Translations under genes and position numbers: made by a program | NCBI GenBank assembly: GCA_020847855.1 | Contig: JADLBH010000011.1 | Coordinates: 1-64,000, forward strand | Reading direction: 5' to 3' | Source: Fimbriimonadaceae bacterium | Lineage (GTDB): Bacteria; Armatimonadota; Fimbriimonadia; Fimbriimonadales; Fimbriimonadaceae | DNA: 64,000 nucleotides | Notes under the pieces: model-generated | Seen by the model: the letters and a program-made list of their open reading frames with translations, nothing else | The model's database searches: none | What the model was told of the DNA's origin: nothing | In this document: positions 5,134-61,717 of the stretch, one piece after another | Numbering within the stretch: position 1 is the first letter of the stretch | Layout: every line of letters starts with the position of its first letter

Positions 5134-6471
5134 TCAAGCGTCCACGAGGGTCGCCCAGCCTGGGACCAGTGCCCTTGCCTCGGGGGTCTGTACCATGCTC
5201 CGCCCGTTCCCGACGTAGTACTCGAACTCTTCGGGGAAGACCTTGAGCGCCCCGGCCACCGGCCAGGCCGCCGCGTCGCCCAGTCCGCAGAATGAGCGGC
5301 CGTCAATCTGCTTCGTCACGTCCATGAGGGTTTCGAGGTCGCCATCCTGACCTTGTCCGCGCACGATCCTCCGGAGGGTCTTCTCCATCCACCTCGTTCC
5401 CTCGCGGCACGGCGTGCACTTGCCGCAAGACTCGTTGGCGTAGAAGAGCGCGGTGCGCCAAATGAAGCTGACGATGCAGGTGTGCTCGTTCAAGACGATG
5501 CACCCGCCCGAGCCGACCATGCTGCCGACTTCCGACATCTCCTCATAGCCTAGGATCGCCCTGCCGCAAGCCTCCGCATTGATGATCGGGACGCTGCTCC
5601 CGCCAGGCACGCACGCCTTGAGCGCACCACCGCGAACCCCGCCCGCGAGCTCGATGAGTTCCATGAGTGGCGTTCCAAACTCGATCTCATAGTTTCCTGG
5701 CCGATGGACGTGTCCGCTCACGGAGAAGAGCTTCGTACCCCTTGAGTTCTTGGTCGAGGCGCCAAGGGTCGAGTACCACTCGCCGCCTTTCTCAAGGATG
5801 AACGGGGCCGCGGCGTAGGTCTCCACGTTGTTGATGAGGGTCGGTGAGTCCCACAATCCCGCGACGGTAGGCAGGGGAGCGTTCGGGAACTTGAGCCGTG
5901 GCATCCCTCGTTCTCCCATCAGTGAGGACATCAAGGCGCTCTCCTCCCCGCACTCATAGGAGCCCGCCCCCATGTGGACGTCAAGGTCGAAATCCATGCC
6001 GGAGCCTTGAATGTTTTTCCCAAGATAGCCCTTGGCATAGGCTTCGTCAATCGCATTGCGGACCGCCCTTGCGGCATCCACGAACTCGCCTCGTATATAA
6101 ATAAACCCTTGGTCGCCGTCCGTGGCCTTCGCGGCGATCGTCATTCCCTCGATCACTTGGAACGGGCACCGCTCCATGAGTTCCTTGTCTTTGAAGGTCC
6201 CTGGTTCGCCTTCGTCCGCGTTGCAGACGACGTAGTGCCGCTTGGTCTTCTCCTTCTCGATGCCGTTCCACTTGATCCACGTAGGGAAGCCCGCCCCGCC
6301 CCGCCCTCGGAGCCCGCTGGCCTTGACCTCGTCAATCACGGCTTGCCGCTCGATGGAGAGGGCCCGCCTAAGCCCGCCATATCCGCCTCGGGCGAGATAG
6401 CCTTCGAGGGTGGGGTAAGCGGGGTCTTCCGCGTGTTCGAGCAGCAGTTTTCGTTCGCCCATGACTTGCAC
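5134..6471 (-). CDS. nuoF: NADH-quinone oxidoreductase subunit F
   Basis: This 445-residue NuoF is the peripheral-arm subunit of complex I that binds NADH and FMN and carries cluster N3. The glycine-rich GLRGRGGAGFPTWIKW (53-68) and VCNADEGEPGTFKD form the FMN/NADH site. YECGEESALM follows, and the N3 cluster ligands lie in ESCGKCTPCREG and in SFCGLGDAAAWP. It is full length for the family. It is the last nuo gene of the cluster, and a lipoprotein-pseudopilin pair separates it from nuoE. No nuoG or membrane-arm genes follow; the next gene is lepB. Confidence 0.97.
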   Translation of the reverse strand: MQVMGERKLLLEHAEDPAYPTLEGYLARGGYGGLRRALSIERQAVIDEVKASGLRGRGGAGFPTWIKWNGIEKEKTKRHYVVCNADEGEPGTFKDKELMERCPFQVIEGMTIAAKATDGDQGFIYIRGEFVDAARAVRNAIDEAYAKGYLGKNIQGSGMDFDLDVHMGAGSYECGEESALMSSLMGERGMPRLKFPNAPLPTVAGLWDSPTLINNVETYAAAPFILEKGGEWYSTLGASTKNSRGTKLFSVSGHVHRPGNYEIEFGTPLMELIELAGGVRGGALKACVPGGSSVPIINAEACGRAILGYEEMSEVGSMVGSGGCIVLNEHTCIVSFIWRTALFYANESCGKCTPCREGTRWMEKTLRRIVRGQGQDGDLETLMDVTKQIDGRSFCGLGDAAAWPVAGALKVFPEEFEYYVGNGRSMVQTPEARALVPGWATLVDA

Positions 6472-41308: not shown

Positions 41309-41707
41309 ATGGCAATGAGACGCTCCGGGCTCGCTGCCGGCCGAGTAGTTCTGGGTGCCACCTTGATCTTCGGCGGATTGGTCGGGATCGTGCCAGCAAG
41401 GCCCTACTACGTCCTGGGCGTACCGAGGGATCTTGGCACCGTGGATGCCGACTTCGGCGCGACCGTGCCCGCGGTGCTGATCAACGCCACCCGGTCCGAG
41501 ATGGATGTCCGCTATTCCGCGTTCGGGTGCGGCCCTGGTGGGACTGCAAGCGTTCCGCCCTTCAGCTGCCGCGGTATCGAGTTGCACTTCGCAGGCGGCG
41601 GACAGAACGGCCCACACATACTTCGTGCCATAATTCAAGGTGCAGGGGATCGGTTCGTAACCACGTGCATAGTGGAGACACGGGCGATCCTCACCAGGAA
41701 GCGATGA
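41309..41707 (+). CDS. DUF1573-like secreted protein, cassette copy 1
   Basis: This 132-residue protein opens with a basic and hydrophobic signal segment (MAMRRSGLAAGRVVLGATLI). The mature domain resembles DUF1573 (Ig-like) proteins in the order LGTVDADFG...VLINATRSEMDVRYSAFGCG. Further on, SVPPFSCRGIELHF parallels SIPPFSTRVLRGEV in the cassette copy 2 protein at 59694. It is the first gene of the four-gene run and ends with ATGA overlap with the pseudopilin. The role is unknown; export and an Ig-like fold are inference. Confidence 0.68.
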   Translation: MAMRRSGLAAGRVVLGATLIFGGLVGIVPARPYYVLGVPRDLGTVDADFGATVPAVLINATRSEMDVRYSAFGCGPGGTASVPPFSCRGIELHFAGGGQNGPHILRAIIQGAGDRFVTTCIVETRAILTRKR

Positions 41708-42465
41708 TGCGTCGAGGGTTCACCTTGGTCGAGTTGCTCGTCAGCGTCGCCATTTTCGCGGTACTGACTGCGATCCTGGTGCCCGTCTTGGGTTCGGCAA
41801 AGCGTCGGAGCCAAGCCGCGGTCGCGGTCGCCCACGTTCGCCAATACGCCCAAGCCGCACTGATCTACGAATCCGCCTACGAGGGATTGCCGGAGGCGAA
41901 CAATTTGACGGGCGGGTATTGGATCTCGGCCATGGGGCTGATGAGGGCCGGACGGGCACAATTGGTAGACCCGACCTTCCGGGTACCAGATCCGAAGAGC
42001 AATCTCGTAGCGTTGAGCGGTTATGCGATCAACGGTTGCCTAGGCTCACGTCCATTCGCCGACGAACCGAGTAGGACCGTGATCTTCGCTACAGTCGGCG
42101 AGTTTGCCGACATCAACGTCTTGGGCGTATCCGAGATGAACGTGGTCGCGCTGATGGCTCCAGACTCTATCGAGTACGGGGAGATCGGAGACAAGGAGTT
42201 CTCCAAGACGAACCAACGGTTGATCCGCCGCCAGGAGTACGGTGCCTTGCGCCATATGGGCAAGGGAGCCTATTCGTTCCTCGACGGCCACGCAAAGCTG
42301 CACGCGCCCACGGAGTTCACCTACCCAACGGACGCATACATGTGCTTCCCTCGACCAGGAAGTAGGATGGCCGGGCCGAACGGTGGGCTTCGCTTCTTCA
42401 CGACTTACAATCTATCGGCTCGCGGTGATTCGGCACCGGAACCTCACGGAGCGATGAACCGCTGA
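41704..42465 (+). CDS. Pseudopilin with H-X9-DG end, cassette copy 1
   Basis: This 253-residue protein has the leader MMRRGFTLVELLVSVAIFAV with canonical Gly before Phe and Glu5. RHMGKGAYSFLDGHAKLHAP near the C-terminus is an exact H-X9-DG motif, and the body is rich in Tyr, Gly and Pro. It is more distant from the nuo-linked pilins, lacking FPVFAQAK. It is coupled to the preceding gene (ATGA) and 19 bases upstream of the cysteine-rich gene. No pilin is present in cassette copy 2. Confidence 0.88.
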   Translation: MMRRGFTLVELLVSVAIFAVLTAILVPVLGSAKRRSQAAVAVAHVRQYAQAALIYESAYEGLPEANNLTGGYWISAMGLMRAGRAQLVDPTFRVPDPKSNLVALSGYAINGCLGSRPFADEPSRTVIFATVGEFADINVLGVSEMNVVALMAPDSIEYGEIGDKEFSKTNQRLIRRQEYGALRHMGKGAYSFLDGHAKLHAPTEFTYPTDAYMCFPRPGSRMAGPNGGLRFFTTYNLSARGDSAPEPHGAMNR

Positions 42466-42484
42466 ACGAAAGAGTCCCAATCTC

Positions 42485-42856
42485 ATGAAAAGTAACACTT
42501 CCCTTGAACGAAGCCGCCAGCTCACCAAGCTGTTCGGCATTTCGGTAGTGATGTTAGTCCTGTGCGGTCTGGCAACTGCGCAGATCTTCAGCCAGTGCAA
42601 CTACGTACCGAAGGATCCGGTGACCGAGCCTTGCAACGTGGCGACGGGTTGCACCGACACGTGCCAGCGAACCTACTATGACGAGGCGGTGTGTGAAGTG
42701 AATCCACTGTCTTCGTGCCTCAAGGAGATCCAATCTCAGTACGACACAGTGAAGACTTACGGATGTGTGCCTGGCACTACCTGCCATTGCCCGTCAAACG
42801 TTCCAGCAATGAACACCTCGTACGTCCTCGTTGATCGCGAACGATGCACGAGCTAA
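42485..42856 (+). CDS. Ten-cysteine secreted mini-protein, cassette copy 1
   Basis: This 123-residue protein has a signal sequence (LTKLFGISVVMLVLCGLATA, cleavage near AQ), then about 90 residues with exactly ten cysteines. Spacings are 11, 5, 3, 9, 7, 15, 5, 1, 18, so a CxC pair (CHC) lies near the C-terminus. The paralogue at 60183 has 11, 6, 6, 9, 6, 15, 7, 1, 17. An even number suggests five disulfides and an oxidising, exported location. The sequence otherwise resembles no family I know. The last codons overlap the next gene by 13 bases. Confidence 0.8.
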   Translation: MKSNTSLERSRQLTKLFGISVVMLVLCGLATAQIFSQCNYVPKDPVTEPCNVATGCTDTCQRTYYDEAVCEVNPLSSCLKEIQSQYDTVKTYGCVPGTTCHCPSNVPAMNTSYVLVDRERCTS

Positions 42857-43887
42857 AGCACTGGTCGGCGCTACTATTCCTAGCGATTGCGAGCACCCAC
42901 CAGCTAGCTTGGTGCGCGGAGGGTCGGACGCTGAAGTACAGCGTTCACTTGTGGATCTTGCCTCAAAGAATAGACGTGGAAGCTCGCGTCGAGGACGCAC
43001 TGTGGAGGCTTCGGGAGGGAGGGATGACCCGAGAAACGGCAGAACGCAATCGGAGCGCTCAGCGGGCGTTCTTCGAATCGCAAACGAAGCCACATGAACT
43101 CAAAGGTTCACTCCTACTCTATACAGACGGACGTCGTCGGCGCGTTGATTACTTCGTTCCTTTGTTGGGGACGGCCGTACGAGCGTTGCCCTATAGTGAG
43201 AGCTTTGACGGCCAACTGACGATGACGAAGGAGCAAGGACGGGGCTCTGTGTCGTTAGGTGACAGTACATCGTTCTTTCGTTCGGTCGCTCACTCGGTGT
43301 TCCTCGCTGGGACAGTGCCGGTCGGTTCTTCGTTCACTTCCACAGAGGAACCTGGTGTCGGGTTGCGCATCGGATACGACCACGGTGTCATCGGTCGAGA
43401 GACGACAACTTTGAAGGGAACTTTGTTCGAGCCGCGATCCGGAGAGTGTCGAATCGAGTCCAAGGAAGGGCGCGTGTGGCAGGAGTACTCTATCGAAGCT
43501 CAGGGTTCGCTGCGTTCCGCAGTTGAAGGTGGTGCGCCATACCGCGTTGTGGTCACGACGAAGGACGCGAAAGGTACCGTTCTGAGGCGTGAGAAGTTCG
43601 AGTTCGTGGCCGCGACGAATACTCAGTTTGAGCCTGTCCTCGGAAGATTGGAGGCTGGGTTGCACGTCTCGGACGGCAGGGCGACGACGAATGAGGGTGG
43701 CCTTTCGTACTTGTGGCCAGGCTCGCTTCCGACGGTAGAGGCTGCTCGCCAGCTCACCCGCTCCCACCTCGAGTCCAATGGTTCAGTGTCCCGAGAGAAA
43801 TGGGCGTTACCGCTCCTCGGGGCTGGTGCGCTGATCCTTGCCTTGCCGTTTCTACGTAAGATCTTGCGAAAGATGAGGCGTTCGTGA
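42844..43887 (+). CDS. Membrane-anchored exported protein, cassette copy 1
   Basis: This 347-residue protein has a signal peptide (MHELKHWSALLFLAIASTHQ) and one C-terminal membrane anchor (WALPLLGAGALILALPFL) followed by a basic tail (RKILRKMRRS). The body would face outside. LREGGMTRETAERNRSA near 57-73 corresponds to LRRGGMTENQIQASDEM in the 348-residue protein at 60671. YTDGRRRRVDYFV...ESFDGQ corresponds to YVRDGVNTWVTYPV...ESYDGT. Same length, topology and gene order make the two homologous. No enzymatic motif is seen. Confidence 0.75.
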   Translation: MHELKHWSALLFLAIASTHQLAWCAEGRTLKYSVHLWILPQRIDVEARVEDALWRLREGGMTRETAERNRSAQRAFFESQTKPHELKGSLLLYTDGRRRRVDYFVPLLGTAVRALPYSESFDGQLTMTKEQGRGSVSLGDSTSFFRSVAHSVFLAGTVPVGSSFTSTEEPGVGLRIGYDHGVIGRETTTLKGTLFEPRSGECRIESKEGRVWQEYSIEAQGSLRSAVEGGAPYRVVVTTKDAKGTVLRREKFEFVAATNTQFEPVLGRLEAGLHVSDGRATTNEGGLSYLWPGSLPTVEAARQLTRSHLESNGSVSREKWALPLLGAGALILALPFLRKILRKMRRS

Positions 43888-43911
43888 GGGAGTGATGGGA
43901 GGGGCCCTGGT

Positions 43912-44535
43912 CTAGGACTCCCCAGGTGACCGCCCCGTCATACTGTCTTCAAGGAAGCGGTAGTGACCGACGACGGTCCAACTGTGCAGCACGTCCTCCT
44001 CGGCCACCTGGCGGATGTTATGGACTACCGCTGGCCAACCGCTCCTGCCGAGGCGGTCGCTCACGATCCCGATGTGGTCGCGACCGGTCGGCATCCTCCA
44101 AGTCACGATATCCCCCGGCCGCCACTCGGTTGCAAGACAGTCCGTGGCCAGAACTTGGAAGTGCCGCCGAAAGTAGACAGCAAGATTCCGCACTCTGCGA
44201 TGGTCAATGTTTGCGTCCGGGCGGGCGATGTCGGGGTAGAGCGAGCGGCGGTGGTCGTCTTGGAGGGCCCTTTGCATATCGAGGCCTGCTCCCCGCAGAG
44301 CCCTTATGGCCACGTCGGAACACGCCCCCACGCTAGAGGGCACATCGCCTCCAGGGTATGCGATCTGGTAGTAGGAGGCGTCGTAGCGGGCGGGACGGTC
44401 GAGCTGGACCAAGGCACCGCGAAAGACCGGGTTCGCGCTCCGGGGCCGGGGCGCAGACCCAAGCGCGCCACGGGGAGCAGAGCGCAAGCTACACCCAGCG
44501 AGGAGCAGGAGCGTCAGGGAGCCGACAACCCGCAT
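43912..44535 (-). CDS. DUF1287 lipoprotein
   Basis: From ATG 44535 this 207-residue lipoprotein has MRVVGSLTLLLLAGC as signal and lipobox. The DUF1287 domain shows YYQIAYPGGDVPSSVGACSD, LDMQRALQDDHRRSLYP, ATEWRPGDIVTW and DHIGIVSDR, with the Cys-Asp and His typical of this NlpC/P60-like family. It is probably an envelope peptidase or amidase-like protein. Length is normal for the family. It ends 24 bases after the convergent cassette copy 1. Confidence 0.88.
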   Translation of the reverse strand: MRVVGSLTLLLLAGCSLRSAPRGALGSAPRPRSANPVFRGALVQLDRPARYDASYYQIAYPGGDVPSSVGACSDVAIRALRGAGLDMQRALQDDHRRSLYPDIARPDANIDHRRVRNLAVYFRRHFQVLATDCLATEWRPGDIVTWRMPTGRDHIGIVSDRLGRSGWPAVVHNIRQVAEEDVLHSWTVVGHYRFLEDSMTGRSPGES

Positions 44536-58081: not shown

Positions 58082-58156
58082 GAAGGCTCCGCACCCGTCC
58101 CATCCTTAGTGCCGGTCTCGGTCACTAAGACCCCCTACCCCAAGGTTCCCAACCGA

Positions 58157-59524
58157 ATGAACCACACGTTCAGAACTAGAAAAGCAGAATCTGGTCGCCC
58201 CCGCCGACGTCGAACCCGAGGCGAAGAGAGGCCGGACCTCACCGTAGACGTTGACTCGCTGCCGACCATTGACGCCAACCATTTCGACAAAATGTCGGCG
58301 ACCGAGCTCGCCAAGGACGCGAAGAAGGCCAAGATCAGCCTCGACCTGCCCCGAAACGTCGTGATCGAGGAGCTCGTCGCCAAGGCCAACCCCGAAGAGA
58401 TCTACCGCAAGGGTGTGCTCGAAGTCCTCTCCGACGGCTGGGGGTTCCTCCGCCGAGACAACTATCAGCCCAGCATCGAGGACTCCTACGTCAGCCAAAA
58501 CCACATCAAGAAGCACGGACTCCGGCCCGGCGACTCGGTCTTCGGACTGTGCCGCGCACCCAAGGAAGGCGAGAAGTACCACGGCATGCTCCGAGTGGAG
58601 ATGGTCAACGGACACGGCACCCTCTCCCCCGAGACCCAAACCCGCCGCAACTTCGACACCCTCACCCCCCTCTTCCCCGACGAGGTCCTCCACCAAGAGA
58701 CCACCCCCGACAAGATCATCGGGCGCATCATTGACCTGATCTCCCCCATCGGCAAGGGACAGCGAGCCTTGATCGTCGCCCCACCCAAGGCGGGAAAGAC
58801 CACCATCCTCAAGTCCATCGCCAACTCCGTCACCGAGAACAACCCCGACGTCTACCTCATGGTCCTTCTCGTGGACGAGCGGCCCGAGGAGGTCACCGAC
58901 ATGAAGCGATCCGTCAAGGGCCAGGTCATCAGCTCCACCTTCGACGAGCCCGCAGAGAACCACATGCGGGTCACCGACCTCTGCCTCGAACAGGCCAAGC
59001 GCCTCGTCGAGGACGGCCGAGACGTCGTCATCCTCCTCGACTCCATCACCAGGCTCTCCCGCGCCAGCAACCTCACCATCAACCCCAGCGGGCGCACCCT
59101 CTCCGGAGGCCTCGACCCCGCCGCACTCTATCGCCCGCGCAGGTTCTTCGGCGCCGCGCGAAACATCGAGGAGGGAGGCTCGCTCACCATCATCGCCACC
59201 GTCCTCATCGAGACCGGCTCCAAGATGGACGACAACATCTTCGAGGAACTCAAAGGGACCGGCAACAGCGAGCTCGTGCTCGACCGCGACCTCGCCGAGC
59301 GCCGCATCTGGCCCGCCATCAACGTCCGCAGCAGTTCCACCCGACACGAGGAACAGCTCCTCGAGAAGGGCCAGCTCGAAGCCGTCTACCACCTCCACCG
59401 CATCCTCGCCAACAGCAAGGACACCGTCGAGGCGACCGACCAGCTCATCAAGCTCCTCAAGCGGATGCCGACCAACAAGGCGTTCCTCGAGAGCGTCATC
59501 GCCAAGACCCGCGCCACGGTCTAA
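58157..59524 (+). CDS. rho: Transcription termination factor Rho
   Basis: Rho (455 residues from ATG 58157; GTG 58109 is a longer alternative) is the hexameric RNA helicase. It has a basic N-terminus ([20 protein letters not shown]), the Rho-N and cold-shock RNA-binding region with [14 protein letters not shown], Walker [13 protein letters not shown], Walker [36 protein letters not shown] and the Q-loop region. The last 26 codons (from about 59440) recur almost identically at 61774-61858, after the cassette that follows. Confidence 0.97.
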
Positions 59525-59640: not shown

Positions 59641-59693
59641 TGGCTTGTGTCTTGGGCTTTAGGCTCGGCGTACATCGCGGAGGTATCGTAAGC

Positions 59694-60182
<489 letters not shown>

Positions 60183-60183
<1 letters not shown>

Positions 60184-60536
60184 TGCTGCACCTGCTTAAG
60201 GATCGAAAGGTGCAGCTTGTCCTTGCAGTAGCGATGTTAACGAGCGTGGCGAACGCCAACTTCTTACGATGCTACAGTTCTCAGCGTGAGTTCATTGGCA
60301 TCGCATGTCTTCAGAGCGAATCCGGGTGTCCGAGCCCCAATCCAGAATGTGTACGCCACGTCGTGACGGACTACACTTGTGCCGGAATAGGTTTCGGCTG
60401 TAGCCTAGCGTTCGGAACACTTACGGGCCAACGTTGGGTGATTCCGTGTGTCACAACGATCGTAGGCACGTGTGCTTGCCCAGAGCTGAGCGGGCCCCCA
60501 ACCGAGGAGTACAACTATGCCGGATACTCGTGCTAA
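60183..60536 (+). CDS. Ten-cysteine secreted mini-protein, cassette copy 2
   Basis: This 117-residue protein starts at GTG 60183, overlapping the previous stop, with GGAGGAGG about six bases upstream. The signal peptide is VQLVLAVAMLTSVANA, with cleavage before NFLRC. The mature part of about 92 residues has exactly ten cysteines spaced 11, 6, 6, 9, 6, 15, 7, 1, 17, including CAC near the end, and the last Cys is the final residue. The match with the copy at 42485 lies in the spacing and the CxC; other residues differ widely. Five disulfides are likely. Function unknown. Confidence 0.82.
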
Positions 60537-60670: not shown

Positions 60671-61717
60671 ATGAAAATGAGCAGAACGCAAACCGATCGT
60701 CCCTATTTGGACGCCATGCCGGAGCCGACTCACCGTCGAGCGGCTTGGCGATCCCTCGTACCGTTCACTCTGGCCCTCACCGCCTGCGGCTGGGCCCAGA
60801 CCGTGAAAGGCACCATGACCACCACGCTCCCGCCGAGCGGAAAGACGGTCCAACAAGAGTACGACCGAAGGGTCTTCGAGCTTCGACGCGGAGGAATGAC
60901 CGAGAACCAGATCCAAGCCTCCGACGAAATGATCCGTCACAGTGCCGAGCGGCTCGCCGCCGGACTGGGGAGCACCGGGCCATTCGAGTACGTCCGAGAC
61001 GGCGTGAACACCTGGGTCACGTATCCCGTCAGCTCGACCAGCCTCGGCAGCGACCAGTCGCAGCACATCGAGTCGTACGACGGCACCACGACCGTCCATG
61101 TAGGGCCCTCGGGCACCGTCGTCGAGGCCGGCGACAAGCGCACCTTCACCGGCAACGCGCTCTGGCAGGCCGCGCTCTGCGGCACCGTCCAGTCTTGGCT
61201 ACAAGAGGTCTCCGCGACCCAGGGGCCGGACGGCGAAGTCGTCGTCTTCGAGGCCGTGAAAGACGAGATGATCCACCGCCTCACCGTCACCTACGCAGAC
61301 TCGGCGAGGGCGAGGGTGGTCGCGGTCGACCAGGGCTACGTCACTCCGGCACAGTTCGTCAAGCCGGGGGTGGACCCGTACGTCCGGGCCGCCAAGGCGA
61401 CGGTCCAACAGTCCCCCGCCCAGGTTGACTTCGACTTCTTCGCAGGGGGCAAAGCGACGCAGCACATCACGCTCGCGATCGAGAGCGAGTCGCCCGACGC
61501 CTCGGTGGCGCTCCTGCGGGGTGTCAAGCCCGGCTCGAAGGTCGTGGACCTTCGCCTCGGGGCGAAGGCGCCGGTCAACTACGTGTTCGACGGGAAGCTG
61601 CCGGAACACTCGGCCATCGCCTCGGAGCCCGCGCCCGTCGGGCTCGCGCCGCTCGGCGCTTCGTTCGCCGGTCTCGTCGGCCTCGTTGCCGCAGTCTGGC
61701 TCTGGAAGCGCAAATGA
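60671..61717 (+). CDS. Membrane-anchored exported protein, cassette copy 2
   Basis: This 348-residue protein starts at ATG 60671 (ATG 60716 is an alternative). A signal-type segment (AWRSLVPFTLALTACGWAQ) is followed by an external domain and a single C-terminal anchor (LAPLGASFAGLVGLVAAVWL) with tail WKRK. LRRGGMTENQIQASDEM and ESYDGT match the 347-residue protein of cassette copy 1. Its bases are more GC-rich than those of the two genes before it. No enzymatic motif is seen. A gap of 134 bases separates it from the mini-protein gene. Confidence 0.75.
   Translation: MKMSRTQTDRPYLDAMPEPTHRRAAWRSLVPFTLALTACGWAQTVKGTMTTTLPPSGKTVQQEYDRRVFELRRGGMTENQIQASDEMIRHSAERLAAGLGSTGPFEYVRDGVNTWVTYPVSSTSLGSDQSQHIESYDGTTTVHVGPSGTVVEAGDKRTFTGNALWQAALCGTVQSWLQEVSATQGPDGEVVVFEAVKDEMIHRLTVTYADSARARVVAVDQGYVTPAQFVKPGVDPYVRAAKATVQQSPAQVDFDFFAGGKATQHITLAIESESPDASVALLRGVKPGSKVVDLRLGAKAPVNYVFDGKLPEHSAIASEPAPVGLAPLGASFAGLVGLVAAVWLWKRK

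Follow-up and report, generated by a model that had tools for sequence, protein, structure and literature searches.

A repeat-associated cassette of divergent ten-cysteine proteins and their membrane partners in Armatimonadota as a candidate phase-variable recognition module

Secreted proteins with a conserved cysteine frame, such as conotoxins and defensins, form families in which a conserved signal peptide precedes a hypervariable mature part. Phase variation by simple sequence repeats (SSRs) is known mainly from host-associated bacteria. In Neisseria, both transcriptional and translational phase variation have been described, depending on the placement of the repeat (PMC5320596). Features of both kinds of systems are found at the locus investigated in this study, the open reading frame (ORF) at positions 60183-60536 of a 64,000-nucleotide stretch of DNA from a Fimbriimonadaceae bacterium (contig JADLBH010000011.1, positions 1 to 64,000), to which we refer as the window. 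This ORF, termed gene2, encodes a mini-protein with ten cysteines and probably belongs to a repeat-switched module for recognition at the surface or after secretion, which includes a partner in the membrane. Searches of a literature library have found neither a report on this cassette nor any on phase variation in Armatimonadota.

The ten-cysteine frame of gene2

A sequence-only reading of the window had related the ORF to a second one at 42485-42856 by the spacing of their cysteines. Both ORFs are present at these positions and the intervals hold exactly, with 11-6-6-9-6-15-7-1-17 in the first and 11-5-3-9-7-15-5-1-18 in the second protein, of which 11, 9, 15 and 1 (the latter corresponding to a CxC motif) are identical. 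The same reading had proposed a fixed frame with unrelated intervening residues, and this property is confirmed in an alignment of 48 gene2 members, where the ten cysteine columns are 94-100% conserved, with a modal spacing in alignment columns of about 12-5-3-9-7-15-6-1-17. The best other columns, a proline and a glycine, reach about 60% and none exceeds about 65%, with a median pairwise identity outside the cysteines of 9.6%. In a sample containing one genome per species, related ORFs occur in about 30 Armatimonadota genomes. On contig C37, the genome of the window holds a third copy that shares 41% identity with the 60183 protein and contains nine cysteines, with Cys4 being lost. Two other members have retained eight cysteines, and inspection by eye suggests the joint loss of either Cys3 or Cys4 with either Cys8 or Cys9. 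This provides only a hint at a disulfide between these sites, since automatic alignment places one loss at Cys2 instead of Cys3/4. A hydrophobic signal-like segment is found in 44 of the 48 proteins, consistent with their predicted export. Searches of Pfam, NCBIfam, PHROGs and PDB sequences did not reveal any convincing family match for gene2, and the shared spacing is thus not explained by a cysteine-rich domain contained in these libraries.

The proposal that the residues between the cysteines change rapidly under diversifying selection did not withstand analysis. In pairwise comparisons between species of genus g50 by the Nei-Gojobori method, the ratio of nonsynonymous to synonymous substitution rates (dN/dS) in the mature region of orthologous gene2 proteins is about 0.11-0.12 (0.125/1.07, 0.054/0.455 and 0.049/0.462), far from the values above 1 outside the cysteines that such change would leave between homologues, and gene2 orthologues are therefore constrained by purifying selection. 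The ratios of the neighbouring genes in the same genus are above those of gene2 (about 0.24-0.34 for gene1 and 0.16-0.32 for gene3). The diversity of gene2 resides between old paralogous lineages, to which tandem arrays add an abrupt boundary between leader and mature region. In an array of five pairs (L089, G153:C2:134000-147000), upstream and signal-peptide DNA of the gene2 copies is near-identical and the mature regions are unrelated, with DNA identities of 86% over the 70 nucleotides upstream, 95% over the first 48 nucleotides encoding the signal peptide, and 45% over the 132 nucleotides that follow. Such a sharp boundary points to recombination, or to concerted evolution of the leader.

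Organization of the cassette and its repeats

The genome contains three cassettes, A and B in the window and C on contig C37, all with the order gene1, gene2 and gene3, and with a pseudopilin between gene1 and gene2 in A only. We regard them as copies of an operon that is present in Armatimonadota in multiple versions, composed of gene1, an optional pseudopilin, gene2 and the membrane-anchored partner gene3. A profile of gene3 matched 14 of 301 relatives and, upon addition of more members, 38 of 291 Armatimonadota genomes; a narrower profile scan of contigs matched two Fimbriimonadaceae loci. Re-reading of neighbourhoods yielded 53 gene2-gene3 pairs from 30 genomes, some of them arranged in tandem, with four or five different pairs per array. 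A pseudopilin is present at five loci with a scored gene1 and at others read by eye. In 39 of 48 gene3 proteins, a C-terminal transmembrane segment is followed by a basic tail. For gene3, Pfam, NCBIfam, PADLOC and PDB sequences contain no convincing family match, and a search for its carriage on phages or plasmids returned no match. The distance matrices of gene2 and gene3 are correlated (Mantel r=0.79; p=0.0005 when permuting gene2 only within genomes), and both genes are thus inherited as matched pairs, a correlation that reflects co-inheritance rather than physical interaction. An intact gene2 without gene3 was found at no place and a gene3 without detected gene2 at several, some of which may contain a gene2 too diverged for detection. 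Examples of the latter are L052 4069-4146 (G032), where a run of ten T precedes the lone gene3, and L047 (G013). Frameshifted or fragmented genes concern gene1 in G007 (L017 ~5761-6250), gene2 and gene3 in G026 (L048 4796-6352) and gene3 in G082 C3 (L094), and might reflect decay, assembly error or further switching.

A pronounced feature of the cassette concerns the SSRs at its 5' end. Tracts of (ACAG)4 or more occur at only two places of the 2.5-Mb genome, 59700-59742 and C37, both at a cassette gene1. In cassettes B and C, the upstream start codon (ATG 59694 in B, GTG in C) enters a short dead frame, and the gene1 frame, which is not preceded by a start codon, is open through the repeat and continues into a signal-peptide-like stretch. 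Across loci, an SSR is found in 16 of 34 5' zones of gene1, compared to 21 in the remaining 508 kb (p=2e-19) and to 7 of 235 control genes (odds ratio 29, p=1.5e-11), two of these seven apparently being the same cassette tracts viewed from the neighbouring gene. The lengths of tracts differ between cassette copies of the same genome, with G10 and G17 in G082, whose flanks are near-identical (one substitution and one base beside the tract), and (AG)7.5 and (AG)9.5 in G130. In genus g50, a G-tract is located between TTGACA (TTGACG in the third copy) and TAGAAT, with spacers of 16, 15 and 15 nucleotides. In families f2 and f8, an ORF resembling sigma-70 region 4 is found directly 5' of gene1 (L138, L089, L139, L093, L094, L101, L092 and L088), in the first five of these loci with a G-tract at its 3' end, whose length may alter the C-terminus of the sigma-like protein and its coupling to gene1. 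The cassette thereby displays, in silico, three of the attributes of a phase-variable locus, namely an SSR at the 5' end or promoter, a frame or spacing that depends on tract length, and a length that varies between near-identical copies.

The features of both cassettes in the window are listed in Table 1. The GTG of the 60183 ORF is placed behind a GGAGG-type ribosome site. Directly 5' of cassette B and in the same orientation, the ORF 58109-59524 resembles the transcription termination factor Rho, as read from its sequence. Cassette A is contained in the region of lowest guanine-cytosine content of the window (42001-44000, 0.577 compared to about 0.62), which is compatible with horizontal acquisition. 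Its assignment as Verru_Chthon pilin cassette was rejected, as its pilin scores far below the cut-offs of both TIGR02596 and TIGR02599.

Table 1. Features of cassettes A and B in the window
Feature	Coordinates	Strand	Remarks
Cassette A gene1	41309..41707	+	DUF1573-like, repeat-free
Cassette A prepilin-like protein	41707..42465	+	N_methyl domain; H-X9-DG motif read by eye
Cassette A gene2	42485..42856	+	ten-cysteine mini-protein; one further cysteine inside signal peptide
Cassette A gene3	42844..43887	+	overlaps end of gene2
Cassette B ribosome-site-like GGAGG (59679-59683) and ATG (59694-59696)	59679..59696	+	gene1 start, out of frame with gene1 in the assembly
Cassette B (ACAG)10.75 tetranucleotide repeat	59700..59742	+	within 5' end of gene1; presumed slippage switch
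Cassette B gene1 frame	59698..60183	+	DUF1573-like exported protein; open across repeat, no start codon ahead of it
Cassette B gene2	60183..60536	+	ten-cysteine exported mini-protein; GTG start overlaps TAG stop of gene1
Cassette B gene3	60671..61717	+	signal peptide, C-terminal transmembrane segment, basic tail; partner of gene2

Proposed function and alternative explanations

The sequences directly show the anatomy of the cassette, its conservation, the enrichment of repeats, the tract-length difference between near-identical copies and the co-divergence of gene2 and gene3, and we infer the export and disulfides of its products, its switching, its function and its target. In the proposed mechanism, slippage of the SSR with which the operon begins would set expression at random. 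In cassettes B and C, (ACAG)n is placed just past the start codon and its length would therefore decide the translation of gene1, to which the translation of gene2, overlapping the stop codon of gene1, would be coupled. Among relatives, this role would fall to mononucleotide tracts located between or beside the -35 and -10 elements, or at the junction with the upstream sigma-like ORF. The fold of gene2 would be held by its ten cysteines, presumably as disulfides, and the products would most likely form a recognition module at the cell surface or after secretion, such as an adhesin, a ligand or a decoy directed at phages, predators or neighbours. Among the explanations considered, this module best fits the combination of presumed random switching with a set of exported proteins that differ from each other, are each conserved, and have matched membrane partners. 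Several observations weigh against it. The AlphaFold2 models are unreliable, with a mean pLDDT (predicted local distance difference test) of 57 for gene2 (three sequences), for which a Foldseek search yielded nothing significant, and of 37 for gene3 (single sequence, no alignment), and surface exposure is presumed. Moreover, the low dN/dS among gene2 orthologues speaks against an arms race at this level, and around half of the cassettes, A among them, contain no SSR at the thresholds used. Finally, ON/OFF switching is proposed from assembled sequence, in which homopolymer lengths can be wrong.

As main alternative, gene2 and gene3 might form a polymorphic toxin-immunity pair, with gene2 encoding a disulfide-stabilised, secreted toxin or bacteriocin-like protein, gene3 its membrane immunity protein and gene1 an export helper. 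The tight pairing and co-divergence of both genes, the tandem arrays of different pairs and the presence of lone gene3 at several loci when intact gene2 never occurs without gene3 would all be expected, although some of these orphans may have an undetected, diverged gene2. We nevertheless consider this explanation unlikely in light of the purifying selection on gene2, the absence of a toxin domain in gene2 in the libraries searched and of a match of gene3 in PADLOC, and the presumably self-defeating consequence of randomly switching off an immunity gene. A lower probability is assigned to a constitutive envelope module, where gene1 to gene3 would build or stabilise a surface structure or serve periplasmic redox chemistry and where the ten-cysteine protein would have a structural role without involvement in recognition. 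The DUF1573/PapD-like character of gene1, the pseudopilin at some loci, the membrane anchor of gene3 and the constraint on orthologues are consistent with such a role, but the patchy presence among the genomes of the phylum, the extreme divergence of paralogues within one genome and the 5' repeats would be unusual for a housekeeping structure. It is more improbable still that the cassette is unswitched, its repeats being either neutral or artefacts of assembly. Although lengths are known from assemblies, some of which are prone to errors in homopolymers, and half of the cassettes are repeat-free, the strong positional enrichment extends over many genomes and repeat types, an array of tetranucleotides over 43 positions cannot be put down to homopolymer errors and both ACAG arrays of the genome are located at the same gene. 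A coincidental cysteine spacing, as the mutual identity of only about 20% between the two window proteins might suggest, or its origin in a known cysteine-rich domain can be dismissed, since the ten columns are kept in 48 members within the same cassette and the searched libraries contain no match, barring a solved fold with the same frame outside of them.

If the cassette indeed encodes a recognition module, it might, in a wider and more tentative proposal, confer antigenic variation across a phylum of free-living bacteria, in which hypervariable ten-cysteine proteins and their partners would be switched by slippage and diversified by recombination between array members with a near-identical leader, either against phages or predators or for kin recognition. 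If it reflects phase variation, the recurrence of differing repeat types in front of one cassette suggests that environmental Armatimonadota are under strong pressure from outside. Independent of this proposal, our study has defined two protein families, the ten-cysteine protein and its partner, neither of which contains a domain known to the libraries searched.

Relation to described systems

Among gene1 proteins, 6 of 16 scanned members match DUF1573 (PF07610, best 5e-8), a HYDIN/PapD-like immunoglobulin domain (PF07610, PF22544), with both window copies being below detection on their own. Gene1 differs in being a short exported protein that heads a cassette with a cysteine-rich protein. In case of gene2, the fixed cysteine pattern, the near-identical signal peptide within an array and the unrelated mature residues resemble families of the conotoxin and defensin type, to which it shows no sequence match beyond weak matches of single members. 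Unlike in these families, gene2 shares a bacterial operon with a membrane partner to which it is matched, and its orthologues are under purifying selection.

The closest parallel to the presumed switch is found in the SSR contingency loci of Neisseria (fetA, porA, pilC and opa; PMC5320596), as the repeats of the cassette fall into the same placement classes and the length of tracts differs between near-identical copies. However, the cassette belongs to an environmental phylum, its proteins are unrelated to those of Neisseria and its switching is predicted from sequence. It is further distinguished by the fact that a single operon family holds translational, promoter and ORF-junction placements of repeats in different lineages.
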